From: an uncultured Erythrobacter sp.
GTDB lineage: Bacteria > Pseudomonadota > Alphaproteobacteria > Sphingomonadales > Sphingomonadaceae
Reading direction: 5' to 3'
Length of the DNA stretch: 64,000 nucleotides
Assembly: GCF_947502395.1 (NCBI RefSeq)
Contig: NZ_CANMZM010000001.1
Location: 248,001 to 312,000 of the forward strand
Below the pieces are notes generated by a model that did not search any database, had not been told where the DNA came from, and worked only from the letters and a program-made list of their open reading frames with translations. The position numbers and the translations under genes are program-made. Below are positions 6,425-10,644 of this stretch, one piece after another (the first letter of the stretch is position 1; every line of letters starts with the position of its first letter).

Positions 6425-6979
6425 ATGAAGAAATCACTGTTTACCCTCGCTCTTTTCGCAGGTGTTGCGGCTTGTAGCGCTCCTGTTGAGAATGCCTCTG
6501 AACCCGATGCTGCAGTCGCTGCAGAAGCATCTGAAAGCGCTGCGCTTTTCGCTGACCTTGGCGGTCAAGCCGAAAATCCGATCTACACCCAAGAGATCGG
6601 TGACACGCTGGCTGTGCGCGGATATGATGTTGTCAGCTACTTTGTCGGTGACGGTACTCCGGTTGAAGGCAGCGAAGCGCTGACCGTTCGCTATAATGGT
6701 TTTGACTATCGCTTCGCCAATGAAGACAATGCCAACGCATTTGTCGAAGATCCTGCAAAATATGCCCCCGCTTACGGTGGTTATTGCGCATGGGCGATTG
6801 GTGCCAATGACGCGCTTGCGCCAGGCGATCCGGAAGTCTTCGAAATTGTTGACGGAAAGCTCTACTTGAATTTCAGTAAGGACGTTCAGACACGCTGGGA
6901 AGAAGACATCCCCGGCTTCATCGAAAAAGGTGATGTGAACTATCCAACCCACTCAGCTGATGAGCACTTCAAGAGCTAA
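6425..6979 (+). CDS. YHS-domain lipoprotein
   Basis: A 184-residue protein with a lipoprotein signal ending in GVAAC (Cys17), then an acidic Ala/Glu linker. A YHS-type domain follows: RGYDVVSYF, YRFANEDNANAF, KYAPAYGGYCAWA, and a LYLNFSKDVQ block. This is the layout of exported YHS proteins (some database members are selenoproteins; no in-frame UGA is seen here). YHS domains are small folds often linked to metal binding, but the role of this exported group is not established. The start has a near-perfect Shine-Dalgarno and the gene ends at a strong terminator. A second YHS protein (9028-9507) shares the same block order. Confidence 0.85.
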   Translation: MKKSLFTLALFAGVAACSAPVENASEPDAAVAAEASESAALFADLGGQAENPIYTQEIGDTLAVRGYDVVSYFVGDGTPVEGSEALTVRYNGFDYRFANEDNANAFVEDPAKYAPAYGGYCAWAIGANDALAPGDPEVFEIVDGKLYLNFSKDVQTRWEEDIPGFIEKGDVNYPTHSADEHFKS

Positions 6980-7065: not shown

Positions 7066-7509
7066 CTATCCGCAGCGTGCGTCTCTGATAACACCGAGGT
7101 TATCGATCATTATGCTGAGCCGCGGACTTGTGGGGTCTGGCTGGACCGTCGCAGTCCCAGGAAGGACAAAGCGCACGCCGCCCTCATTGTTCGCAGCGGT
7201 CTCAACAATTTGAACGCGAACCGCATCGTCGTATTTCTGACCGATGTAGGGTTCCATCAAATTGGCTCCGCAAATCGAACTAGCGGGGTCGGCCATTGTG
7301 CCTGGCACATCAGAGCTGTTCCCGGCAACGGGTAGAGGAGCGGCGACGCTCGGCGCATCGGCCGCCTCTGACGCAGCTCCGCCTTGCGCTCCACCGTTGA
7401 TTCGAGCCGCAAAATCGTCGGCAGAGCTTGCGTCACCTTCAGATCTGGCATCGCACGCGGCAAGAACAGCCATCAAGGAGCACGCAAGAACCGTGGAAGA
7501 TTTTTTCAT
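7066..7509 (-). CDS. lipoprotein with I78-type peptidase-inhibitor domain
   Basis: A 147-residue protein with a lipobox ending LAAC (Cys19) followed by Asp, which in E. coli favours inner-membrane retention. After a low-complexity Ala/Ser/Gly linker (about 20-75) comes an I78 inhibitor-like domain: CGANLMEPYIGQ, a central RFVLPGTATV block, then PRLSIMIDNLGVIRDARCG. The paired Cys near the ends and the PG..T..D..RL...D..G.I pattern are characteristic of the family, whose founding members inhibit serine proteases. It probably acts in the periplasm. It is convergent with the YHS lipoprotein. Confidence 0.78.
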   Translation of the reverse strand: MKKSSTVLACSLMAVLAACDARSEGDASSADDFAARINGGAQGGAASEAADAPSVAAPLPVAGNSSDVPGTMADPASSICGANLMEPYIGQKYDDAVRVQIVETAANNEGGVRFVLPGTATVQPDPTSPRLSIMIDNLGVIRDARCG

Positions 7510-8729: not shown

Positions 8730-9027
8730 GGCCCTCGCTCTTATTGGGTGGATCACCTTCGTGCGATACGCGGGGATCTGCTTCAGTCGCTCGTCTTGGC
8801 CCGGCCTTATGACAAGTCGCCCTGCGTCTCATCAATTTTTTTTCAGATGAGTGTCACCAATTGAGCTGCCCCCGCGAAACAACAGATGTGCGCGGTCGCA
8901 AGGCGCTCGGCAGGTTCCAGCTGGTTTCCCCCTTAAGCCAGCTTACACCCTAGCCCCCCTTGACCTGCAAACCGCTTTGCGATCGCCGCACGACGCTTTT
9001 TTAAAGCGGACTCAAAGGAGATAAGTT

Positions 9028-9507
9028 ATGAAGATCAGGTATTTGATGGCAGCTGCCGTCGCGTTTGCAGCTCCGGTTGCATTAACCGCTCCGGTATTGG
9101 CCGATGGTGGTATTTTCGTAGGCGTAGAAGGCAGTAATGTTGCTGTGAGCGGTTACGACACCGTGAGCTATTTTCAGGGCAGTGGAAAGCCAGTTCGCGG
9201 CTCTGCCCAGTTCAAGGTGAACCACGGTGGAGCAGTCTATCACTTCTCCAGCCAGGCCAATGCTGACCTGTTTGCTTCGAGCCCAGACCAGTATGCTCCG
9301 CAATATGGCGGCCACTGTGCATGGGCGATGAGCCGCGGTTCGCTGGCACCGGGTGATCCGACCCTCTACAAAATTCACGATGGCAAGCTCTATCTGAACT
9401 TCAATCGCAATGTGCAGAGCACGTGGCTCGGCGACATCGAAGGCTTCATTGCCAAGTCAGATCCAGCCTGGACCAAGATTCCGGACGGTAAGAAGTTCGG
9501 CGACTGA
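9028..9507 (+). CDS. exported YHS-domain protein
   Basis: A 159-residue protein with a classical signal peptide (cleavage likely after VLA, about residue 25) and a YHS-type domain: SGYDTVSYF, YHFSSQANADLF, QYAPQYGGHCAWAM and LYLNFNRNVQSTW. It is paralogous to the lipoprotein at 6425-6979, with the same order of blocks, but lacks the lipobox and acidic linker, so it should be soluble in the periplasm. A strong AAAGGAGAT ribosome site precedes the ATG. The Cys/Ala repeat gene starts 112 bases downstream on the same strand and may be in the same transcript. Confidence 0.84.
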   Translation: MKIRYLMAAAVAFAAPVALTAPVLADGGIFVGVEGSNVAVSGYDTVSYFQGSGKPVRGSAQFKVNHGGAVYHFSSQANADLFASSPDQYAPQYGGHCAWAMSRGSLAPGDPTLYKIHDGKLYLNFNRNVQSTWLGDIEGFIAKSDPAWTKIPDGKKFGD

Positions 9508-9619
9508 TCCCTTTTCGTGTGGCGGCTGCAAACCCTCCCTTTGCCCCCTTGCTGCTTAGCCGCAGCGGCAGCCGCCCACGATCCCCAGAATATTTGAGAG
9601 AGATTGAAAGGAAATTCCC

Positions 9620-9922
9620 ATGACCAAGAAGACAAGTTTCGCGAAAATGTTGATGGTTGCAGGTGGCCTCGCCGTTGCGACTGCTGGTGCGCCAGCCGCT
9701 GCTCAGTGCAGCGCCGCTTGTACCGCCGCTGCCTGTAAGGCGAGCGCTTGTTCTGCCGCAGGTTGCTGTGCCGCTGCCTGTTGCGCTGCCGCTGGTTGTG
9801 CGGCTGCCGGATGCGCTGCATCGGCTTGTGCCGCATCTGCTTGTGCTGCTGGTTGCTGCGCTGCTGGTTGCTGCGCTGCGGGTTGCTGTGCAGCTGGATG
9901 CTGCGGCGCGGCCGACGACTGA
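9620..9922 (+). CDS. exported cysteine/alanine repeat protein (possible metal-binding peptide)
   Basis: A 100-residue protein with a clear signal peptide (residues 1 to about 28, ending APAAAQ). The mature part is almost only Ala, Cys, Gly and Ser, with 20 cysteines in residues 30-95, first as C-x3/4-C and then as four copies of AAGCC. The codons vary (GCT/GCC/GCG/GCA, TGT/TGC), so the pattern is maintained at protein level and is not a simple DNA slippage product. It has AAAGGAAA before the ATG and a terminator-like hairpin after it. No recognised family; the CC and CxxxC spacings suggest soft-metal binding or a disulphide-rich structure. It does not show the usual EGKCG repeat of bufferin-type peptides. 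Confidence 0.7.
   Translation: MTKKTSFAKMLMVAGGLAVATAGAPAAAQCSAACTAAACKASACSAAGCCAAACCAAAGCAAAGCAASACAASACAAGCCAAGCCAAGCCAAGCCGAADD
9845..9904 (+). repeat. four 15-bp tandem repeats encoding AAGCC
   Basis: Four consecutive 15-base units, first two identical (GCTGCTGGTTGCTGC), the others with synonymous changes only. They encode residues 76-95 of the Cys/Ala protein. The changes being synonymous points to selection on the peptide. Confidence 0.85.
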
Positions 9923-9966
9923 TCCGTTCACGGGTTGTGCGCCTGCTGCCTGACGGGCGTGCACTT

Positions 9967-10017
9967 GAGTGTGGTTGGAGGGTCGTTCCTCCTAGCCCCT
10001 CTGGCCACACTCTTCTT
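9967..10017 (+). terminator. terminator-like hairpin after the Cys/Ala repeat gene
   Basis: Outer arms GAGTGTGG (9967-9974) and CCACACTC (10005-10012) with an inner GGAGG/CCTCC hairpin, followed by TTCTT. The T tract is short and interrupted, so termination strength is uncertain. Confidence 0.55.
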
Positions 10018-10044: not shown

Positions 10045-10644
10045 TCACAAACATATTGGCGCAGCGGTTCTAAATCGCTGCGCCAATTTTTCTACTGTAT
10101 ACCTGTCCTCAATCGCATCGCCGGCACAGGTTTGATAGCGCGGATCCTGTGTCACGCAGCCGGGCCCGCAAACAAGACGGGCCACGCCTGTCACATGGTT
10201 GATATGCCAAAAACGTCCGCCCGGTGTTGATACATAGCCATCCATCCCATTGGCGATATCGCTTCTGATATCGGTGACAGACGGCACCTCTCCATCATAT
10301 TCGCGGCTGAAACGCCCGTGGGTGTGGAAGCTGGCAATTGGCACCATTCCGGGCTCATCAAAGAAGGACAGATCGCAAGTGGCTTCATCGCCCCCGGTTT
10401 TGCGTGAAGCTCCTAATTCTCCATCGCTGGTTTCAAAGATGATCCCGCAGAGTTCGATATTCTCATTGAAGCTGCGTTCCTGAAGCGCATTCAGTTGTTC
10501 GCGGGCGAAGGCTTCAACGTCATATTGCGGTACCACTGGCTGAAGCGCCTCGGGACCCTTCACATTGAGATAGGCCCGCGCGATGATCACCAAGAAGGCG
10601 ATAGCACACAGGACATAGAGGAGGCGGGTGGCAGACAATTGCAT
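10045..10644 (-). CDS. DUF4329-type protein with a JAMM-like metalloprotease signature
   Basis: A 199-residue protein with an N-terminal membrane helix (about residues 7-25). The rest resembles DUF4329: LCGIIFET, then SFHTHGRFS and EVPSVTD. The residues can be read as a JAMM/MPN+ zinc site: a Glu at 64 or 71, His107-x-His109, and Ser122-x-x-Asp125, with a longer gap than in classical JAMM proteins. Six cysteines in the C-terminal half suggest disulphides in the periplasm. It lies next to ilvC on the same strand (18 bp after the ilvC stop), so it may be the last gene of that transcript. Protease activity is inference only. Confidence 0.65.
   Translation of the reverse strand: MQLSATRLLYVLCAIAFLVIIARAYLNVKGPEALQPVVPQYDVEAFAREQLNALQERSFNENIELCGIIFETSDGELGASRKTGGDEATCDLSFFDEPGMVPIASFHTHGRFSREYDGEVPSVTDIRSDIANGMDGYVSTPGGRFWHINHVTGVARLVCGPGCVTQDPRYQTCAGDAIEDRYTVEKLAQRFRTAAPICL

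Follow-up and report, generated by a model that had tools for sequence, protein, structure and literature searches.

The locus and its genes

The window considered here, i.e., the whole stretch of 64,000 nucleotides that was analysed, lies on contig C1 of the genome of an uncultured Erythrobacter sp. (hereafter G000). It carries a gene for a cysteine-repeat precursor protein that starts 112 nt past the stop codon of a gene for an exported YHS-domain protein and on the same strand (Table 1), an arrangement that had been described in the initial annotation and was borne out. Residues 30-95 of this protein (66 residues) hold 20 Cys at spacings of 1, 4 and 5 only, with (AAGCC)4 at residues 76-95 and another AAGCC at residue 46, which confirms the Cys/Ala repeat as first described; the second-densest 66-residue stretch among all window ORFs of at least 70 aa has 10 Cys. 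The cysteines keep a five-residue register at positions 39-44-49-54 and again at 60-65-70-75-80-85-90-95, where every fifth residue is Cys and extra Cys stand between. Export, likewise proposed at the outset, is supported by an N-terminal Sec signal peptide, judged by composition; several Cys lie in the mature part.

Table 1. Features of the locus (window coordinates)
Feature	Position	Strand	Description and basis
Second exported YHS-domain protein	6425-6979		NCBIfam NF041384; 2 kb upstream of the first
I78-type peptidase inhibitor	7066-7509	-	same block
A-leader, structured leader RNA	8886-8993	+	14-pair basal stem, bulged once on its 3' side; the YHS gene starts after a further 34 nt
Exported YHS-domain protein	9028-9507	+	upstream gene of the presumed operon; NCBIfam NF041384, Pfam PF04945
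Intergenic stem GGCGGCTGC/GCAGCCGCC	9521-9576	+	between YHS and Cys-repeat genes; 9 bp, 38-nt loop
Cys-repeat precursor protein, type A	9620-9922	+	100 aa, 20 Cys, ATG start, stop codon included; ORF, composition, register, homologues, selection
Signal-peptide region, residues 1-29	9620-9706	+	judged by composition; common to the family
Signal-peptide motif MLMVAGGL, residues 10-17	9647-9670	+	common to precursors paired with DUF6969
Cys-repeat core, residues 30-95	9707-9904	+	composition
Hairpin 3' of the Cys-repeat gene	9967-10012	+	arms 9967-9982 and 9997-10012, 16 nt, 81% complementary
DUF4329 protein	10045-10644	-	same block
Terminator scan call	10055-10087		

Ala/Cys-rich, GC-rich repeat DNA can, as a matter of general knowledge, open long frames, and the gene could on that ground be a low-complexity ORF without function. 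This we find hardly credible in view of its codon usage, its conserved signal peptide and the leader RNA of its operon (see below). Codons five apart differ at 18, 25 and 66% of the first, second and third positions, respectively (67 pairs), and comparison with four relatives of the same type gives pS values of 0.67-0.82 vs pN values of 0.25-0.33. Mismatches between such codons are thus concentrated at the third position, and pS lies well above pN; the gene is under protein-level selection, as had been argued before. The 3' hairpin noted in the initial annotation is present, but the terminator scan of the window does not call it and places its call further downstream instead (Table 1).

A family of cysteine-repeat precursors

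A search of the window's genome and 99 relatives returned Cys-repeat matches in 24 of 61 genomes of the genus (Erythrobacter) and in one of 39 other genomes of the order, the latter being doubtful (three in-frame stops, E = 7e-4). The proteins are of two types. Type A, to which the window gene belongs, is secreted; its signal peptide looks cleavable, and CAANP and CCAAG are among its repeats. Type B is a lipoprotein that has a Cys resembling that of a lipobox, with CCAAEG as an example of its repeats; G000 encodes one of each, with type B at C1:806498. No family had been recognised at first, but one exists: the syntenic gene of genome G043 (locus L064) scores 34.2 bits against the NCBIfam model NF038108, 'Cys-every-fifth RiPP peptide CefA' (cut-off 30), although the window protein itself matches no NCBIfam family up to E = 1, NF038108 included. 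The curated CefA model shares with the window protein a Cys at every fifth residue and differs in its repeat, which is CAANP rather than CC/CAA-G. Peptides with Cys at every fifth position are thus already named as putative RiPPs by this model; no paper naming NF038108 was found in the open-licence literature.

DUF6969 is the recurrent partner

In stretches of up to 20 kb around such genes, a protein with the sequence SRWYYHVHAPG...EHGHFHLF recurs beside the Cys repeats, and the four examples tested belong to DUF6969 (PF22308). It is this family, and neither MNIO nor YHS, that is the commonest companion of the Cys-repeat family. A scan of named genomes gave at least 547 DUF6969 relatives, the best 80 loci of which were analysed with a detector of repeated cysteines, which looks for two Cys a set distance apart that are flanked by the same residues. 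The detector fires within 2.5 kb of DUF6969 in 58 of these best 80 of at least 547 loci, in none of their 80 outer flanks (327 kb) and in none of 30 MNIO loci (113 kb). One of the 58 is a false positive (L238) and six loci were added by eye (L174, L179, L192, L205, L207 and L210), which brings exported Cys-repeat proteins near DUF6969 to a corrected 63 of the best 80 of at least 547. In 16 of the same 80 no Cys-repeat protein was seen in reach, and the DUF6969 partner at L203 has a single Cys; the cysteines are therefore not strictly required.

The best 80 of at least 547 loci come from what we take to be Sphingomonadales, Hyphomicrobium, Kiloniellaceae and other Alphaproteobacteria, presumably also from Betaproteobacteria (Denitromonas, Herminiimonas and Nitrosomonadales) and, on the same assumption, from Gammaproteobacteria (Marinobacter and tubeworm endosymbionts). 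Among these best 80 the repeats beside DUF6969 vary by lineage (CCAAEG, CAANP, NPCAAK, CNPCAAK, KCAPKC), and in several partners outside the sphingomonads the repeat protein is fused to a cytochrome, either a SoxA/TsdA-like cytochrome c or P460 (Pfam). Long proteins of this fused kind were seen near DUF6969 at L211, L213, L230, L204 and L212. The window gene belongs to a family that is widespread in bacteria and usually has DUF6969 as its neighbour, and this cross-class association is the main support for the reading proposed below. The suggested co-occurrence with YHS proteins holds in part: the two genes share a syntenic block, but YHS occurs in just seven of the best 80 of at least 547 DUF6969 loci, five of these being one syntenic block, so the YHS link is mainly one of synteny. 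Two YHS genes stand side by side in seven of the eight YHS-holding loci among L062-L081.

Within the genus, DUF6969 is found in 30 of 61 genomes, including 23 of the 24 with a Cys-repeat match; the exception has a Cys-repeat gene that is cut by the end of its contig. Seven genomes have DUF6969 but no such match; next to it lies a divergent Cys-repeat gene in five of them and a Met-rich counterpart in the other two (G020 and G024). DUF6969 is otherwise uncommon, occurring in 20 of 398 genomes across the phylum and in 17 of 149 in the family.

Recurrent neighbours in the 61 loci L182-L242 include a cluster of VTT/pyridine-nucleotide disulphide reductases (10 loci) and the sulphur transporter PF04143 (four), both by Pfam, as well as AhpD-like (eight, named by eye), ECF-like sigma (six) and FGE-like (six) proteins, the last clusters being partly named by eye. 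These neighbours fit a metal or redox stress setting. The reductases, the transporter and the AhpD-like proteins, together with the SoxA/TsdA cytochrome fusion, would also suit a use of the cysteines in sulfur or redox chemistry rather than metal binding, i.e., an exported store of disulphide or persulfide; we regard this as improbable, since methionine, which replaces Cys in two branches of the family (see below), can form neither. Sub-threshold matches to the Caulobacter sRNA CC2171 (46-54 bits, gathering threshold 75) were seen about 2 kb downstream of DUF6969 at L163, L165, L169, L171 and L178.

The DUF6969 protein itself is predicted to be cytoplasmic, and a strongly hydrophobic N-terminus is found in none of the 62 rows of its alignment. 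Two alignments, of 20 and 62 rows, share the invariant residues Y50, P51, H67, H69, E78, G80, H81, H83, H113, N132, R186 and D187, the invariance in the larger one being partly by construction because the pattern used to select its rows contained H79, H81, H83 and N132. In the 20-row alignment H49, D54, H79 and R133 vary, and the L230 protein has Asn at position 79. The structure model is confident (pLDDT 95) and has no significant match in the PDB, nor was a known catalytic fold found; no NCBIfam model matched the four DUF6969 proteins scanned. In this model the invariant residues form a metal-site-like pattern.

An orphan precursor with a conserved signal-peptide motif

DUF6969 is not adjacent to the window gene: the sole match of its genome lies 0.55 Mb away, beside the type B paralogue. 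Twelve type A loci lie in the same syntenic block (YHS, Cys-repeat gene, DUF4329 and ilvC), and DUF6969 stands beside the Cys-repeat gene in six of them, is absent in five, the window's included, and one is cut. Three more orphan type A genes were found via the leader RNA and read by eye. Since all eight orphans lie in genomes that have DUF6969 elsewhere, action in trans is the simplest reading.

What the orphans share with the paired precursors is a motif in the signal peptide, ML-x-V-x-GGL, which in the form [MLF][LMI]x[VI]xGG[LM] is present near the N-terminus of 41 of 41 precursors beside DUF6969 at L163-L203. These precursors, mostly from Sphingomonadales or genera of that order with a few given only as Alphaproteobacteria, were chosen by position, hydropathy and composition and not by the motif, the regular expression having been written after the sequences had been inspected. 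The motif occurs in all eight orphan type A proteins, in one of 351 window ORFs, namely the window gene, and in none of 17 Cys-free lipoproteins that follow the leader RNA described below and are not beside DUF6969. It was not seen in the DUF6969 partners of lineages outside L163-L203.

Two structured leader RNAs

The presumed operon of the window gene is preceded by a structured leader, the A-leader (Table 1), which was folded with RNAalifold on 13 sequences and in which four pairs are changed on both sides. The covariance model built from it, R1, matches 17 of 61 genus genomes once each, of which 12 are the model's source genomes and five are new. Copies of the A-leader without YHS or Cys-repeat genes downstream occur in G004 and G051.

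The leader of the type B genes forms an H-type pseudoknot, with stem 1 near TTCTTGCCG/CGGCAAGAA and stem 2 near GGGGCGC/GCGCCCC. In 21 of 32 upstream regions it scores above the best of 20 dinucleotide shuffles, and in 22 rows whose register was set by hand both stems exceed all 5000 block permutations (170 of 198 paired cells in stem 1 and 149 of 154 in stem 2, against permuted maxima of 164 and 141). The model of this leader, R2, contains six base pairs, all of them in stem 1, while stem 2 contributes through its sequence, and matches 41 of 61 genus genomes. In all 19 R2 matches outside the R2 alignment, the loop pairs with the tail over 7 to 12 positions to give a second stem, and the mean score (23.5) exceeds the maximum (23.1) of 2000 permutations of the tails among genomes. 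The G000 copy lies at C1:806391-806441, upstream of a small lipoprotein, and other examples are found at L272, L275 and L276. Neither leader RNA has a match in Rfam.

Cysteine and methionine at the TspO-TlyA locus

A small lipoprotein-like ORF follows the R2 leader in all 41 genus genomes with a leader match, and in 22 loci that were compared by tblastn it lies between TspO- and TlyA-like genes. Beside DUF6969 this lipoprotein has Cys repeats in 22 of 24 cases, whereas without an adjacent DUF6969 it has no mature Cys in 17 of 17, three of these genomes (G029, G034 and G035) having a separate Cys-repeat gene with DUF6969 elsewhere. G020 and G024 keep DUF6969, but Met replaces Cys (e.g., EGEM); they fall on two separate branches of the TspO tree, where G024 is the sister of the window's genome. 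On this tree DUF6969 at the lipoprotein locus changes once and Cys three times. Because DUF6969 changes once, neither the within-genus contrasts nor the Fisher P values for gene co-occurrence and for the signal-peptide motif are independent evidence, and the contrast at this locus amounts to one event and two Cys-to-Met replacements. A Cys-to-Met swap is easier to reconcile with Cu(I) than with Zn or Cd. By this established chemistry, the two switches point to a ligand bound by both Cys and Met, with Cu(I) as the first candidate.

Comparison with bufferins and metallothioneins

Bufferins and captophorins are exported Cys-rich RiPPs modified by MNIO enzymes (PMC12452194 and PMC13097082). Like the family studied here, they have Cys repeats and a Sec signal peptide that probably serves for recognition, and both groups include lipoproteins, fusions to cytochromes and orphan precursors. 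The difference lies in the partners, which in bufferins are MNIO and DUF2063 and here DUF6969. The window protein contains no EGKCG and has no DUF2282 or EGKCG-type match in Pfam or NCBIfam up to E = 1. MNIO (PF05114) is not in the cluster of the window gene; the only match in G000 is at C3:147768, off the window's contig, so the absence of an adjacent MNIO gene, from which the initial annotation had argued against a known bufferin, stands. The G000 MNIO locus (L063/L035) reads as an ordinary bufferin operon, with sigma factor, DoxX-like, DUF2282-like precursor, MNIO and DUF2063-like genes, all named by eye except MNIO (Pfam).

An orphan bufferin precursor could nevertheless be modified in trans by the MNIO/DUF2063 pair of its genome, and stand-alone bufferin precursors are reported (PMC12452194). 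G000 has an MNIO gene, and MNIO occurs in 22 of 24 genus genomes with a Cys-repeat match vs 15 of 37 without, and in 26 of 30 with DUF6969 vs 11 of 31 without; in G035 the MNIO gene and the Cys-repeat gene are on one contig, 16 kb apart. This co-occurrence is, however, confounded by ancestry, and in G002 and G029 Cys-repeat matches occur without any MNIO match. The silence of the detector at all 30 MNIO loci, the finding that six MNIO loci of the genus each have a bufferin-like precursor of their own (named by eye) and the lack of a DUF2282 or EGKCG match argue in the same direction, and we doubt strongly that the window protein is an unrecognised bufferin.

Metallothioneins resemble the window protein in being small, Cys-dense and almost free of aromatic residues, but the window protein is exported, keeps a strict pentad register and has a partner gene. 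It has no metallothionein match in Pfam or NCBIfam.

A proposed route of maturation and its meaning

The genome sequences by themselves show that the precursors form a family associated with DUF6969, that the motif is shared, that the window gene is an orphan and that there are leader RNAs; we infer from them the cytoplasmic action of DUF6969, its recognition of the motif, the modification of Cys and the metal. In the proposed route, cytoplasmic DUF6969, here encoded 0.55 Mb away and acting in trans, would recognise the conserved motif of the signal peptide and, before the protein leaves through Sec, would handle its repeated cysteines, in all likelihood by modifying them chemically. Once exported, the product would buffer a soft metal, of which copper is the best candidate; type A would do so in the periplasm and type B lipoproteins at the membrane. 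Taken as a whole, the reading of the window protein as an exported, thiol-rich and probably soft-metal-binding precursor whose Cys are handled by DUF6969 before export has, in our judgement, an even chance of being right.

The same association data would be expected if DUF6969 were a cytoplasmic chaperone that, with no modification involved, keeps the Cys reduced and metal-free, or loads the metal, until Sec export, the product being a plain secreted metallothionein-like protein. Its conserved His, Glu and Asp could bind metal for delivery, and its fold was matched to no modifying enzyme. So strict a set of invariant residues would be surprising in a protein that only chaperones, however, and a signal peptide within the recognition sequence is reported, from preliminary results, for the modification of bufferins (PMC12452194). 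We consider chaperoning alone rather unlikely: because of the invariant residues and the bufferin parallel, modification seems the likelier activity, the data being compatible with both.

The maturation may be of a new kind. DUF6969 might even found a new class of RiPP-type maturases, with a fold unlike solved structures, for which a Sec signal peptide serves as leader and repeated Cys, as well as whole proteins fused to cytochromes, are the targets of modification before export, its precursors being under the control of two undescribed leader RNAs, one of them an H-type pseudoknot and maybe a riboswitch; this we put forward as a tentative possibility. No paper found in the open-licence literature describes the link to DUF6969, the signal-peptide motif or the two leaders, and the DUF6969 family itself was found in none of the papers searched there. 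In PMC12452194 and PMC13097082, MNIO enzymes are the partners of Cys-rich peptides that mature before they are exported through Sec. If the proposed route is true, DUF6969, with members in Alpha-, Beta- and Gammaproteobacteria, would be a second partner family unrelated to the first, bacteria would have built such thiol or metal buffers more than once, and DUF6969 would gain a directly testable role.
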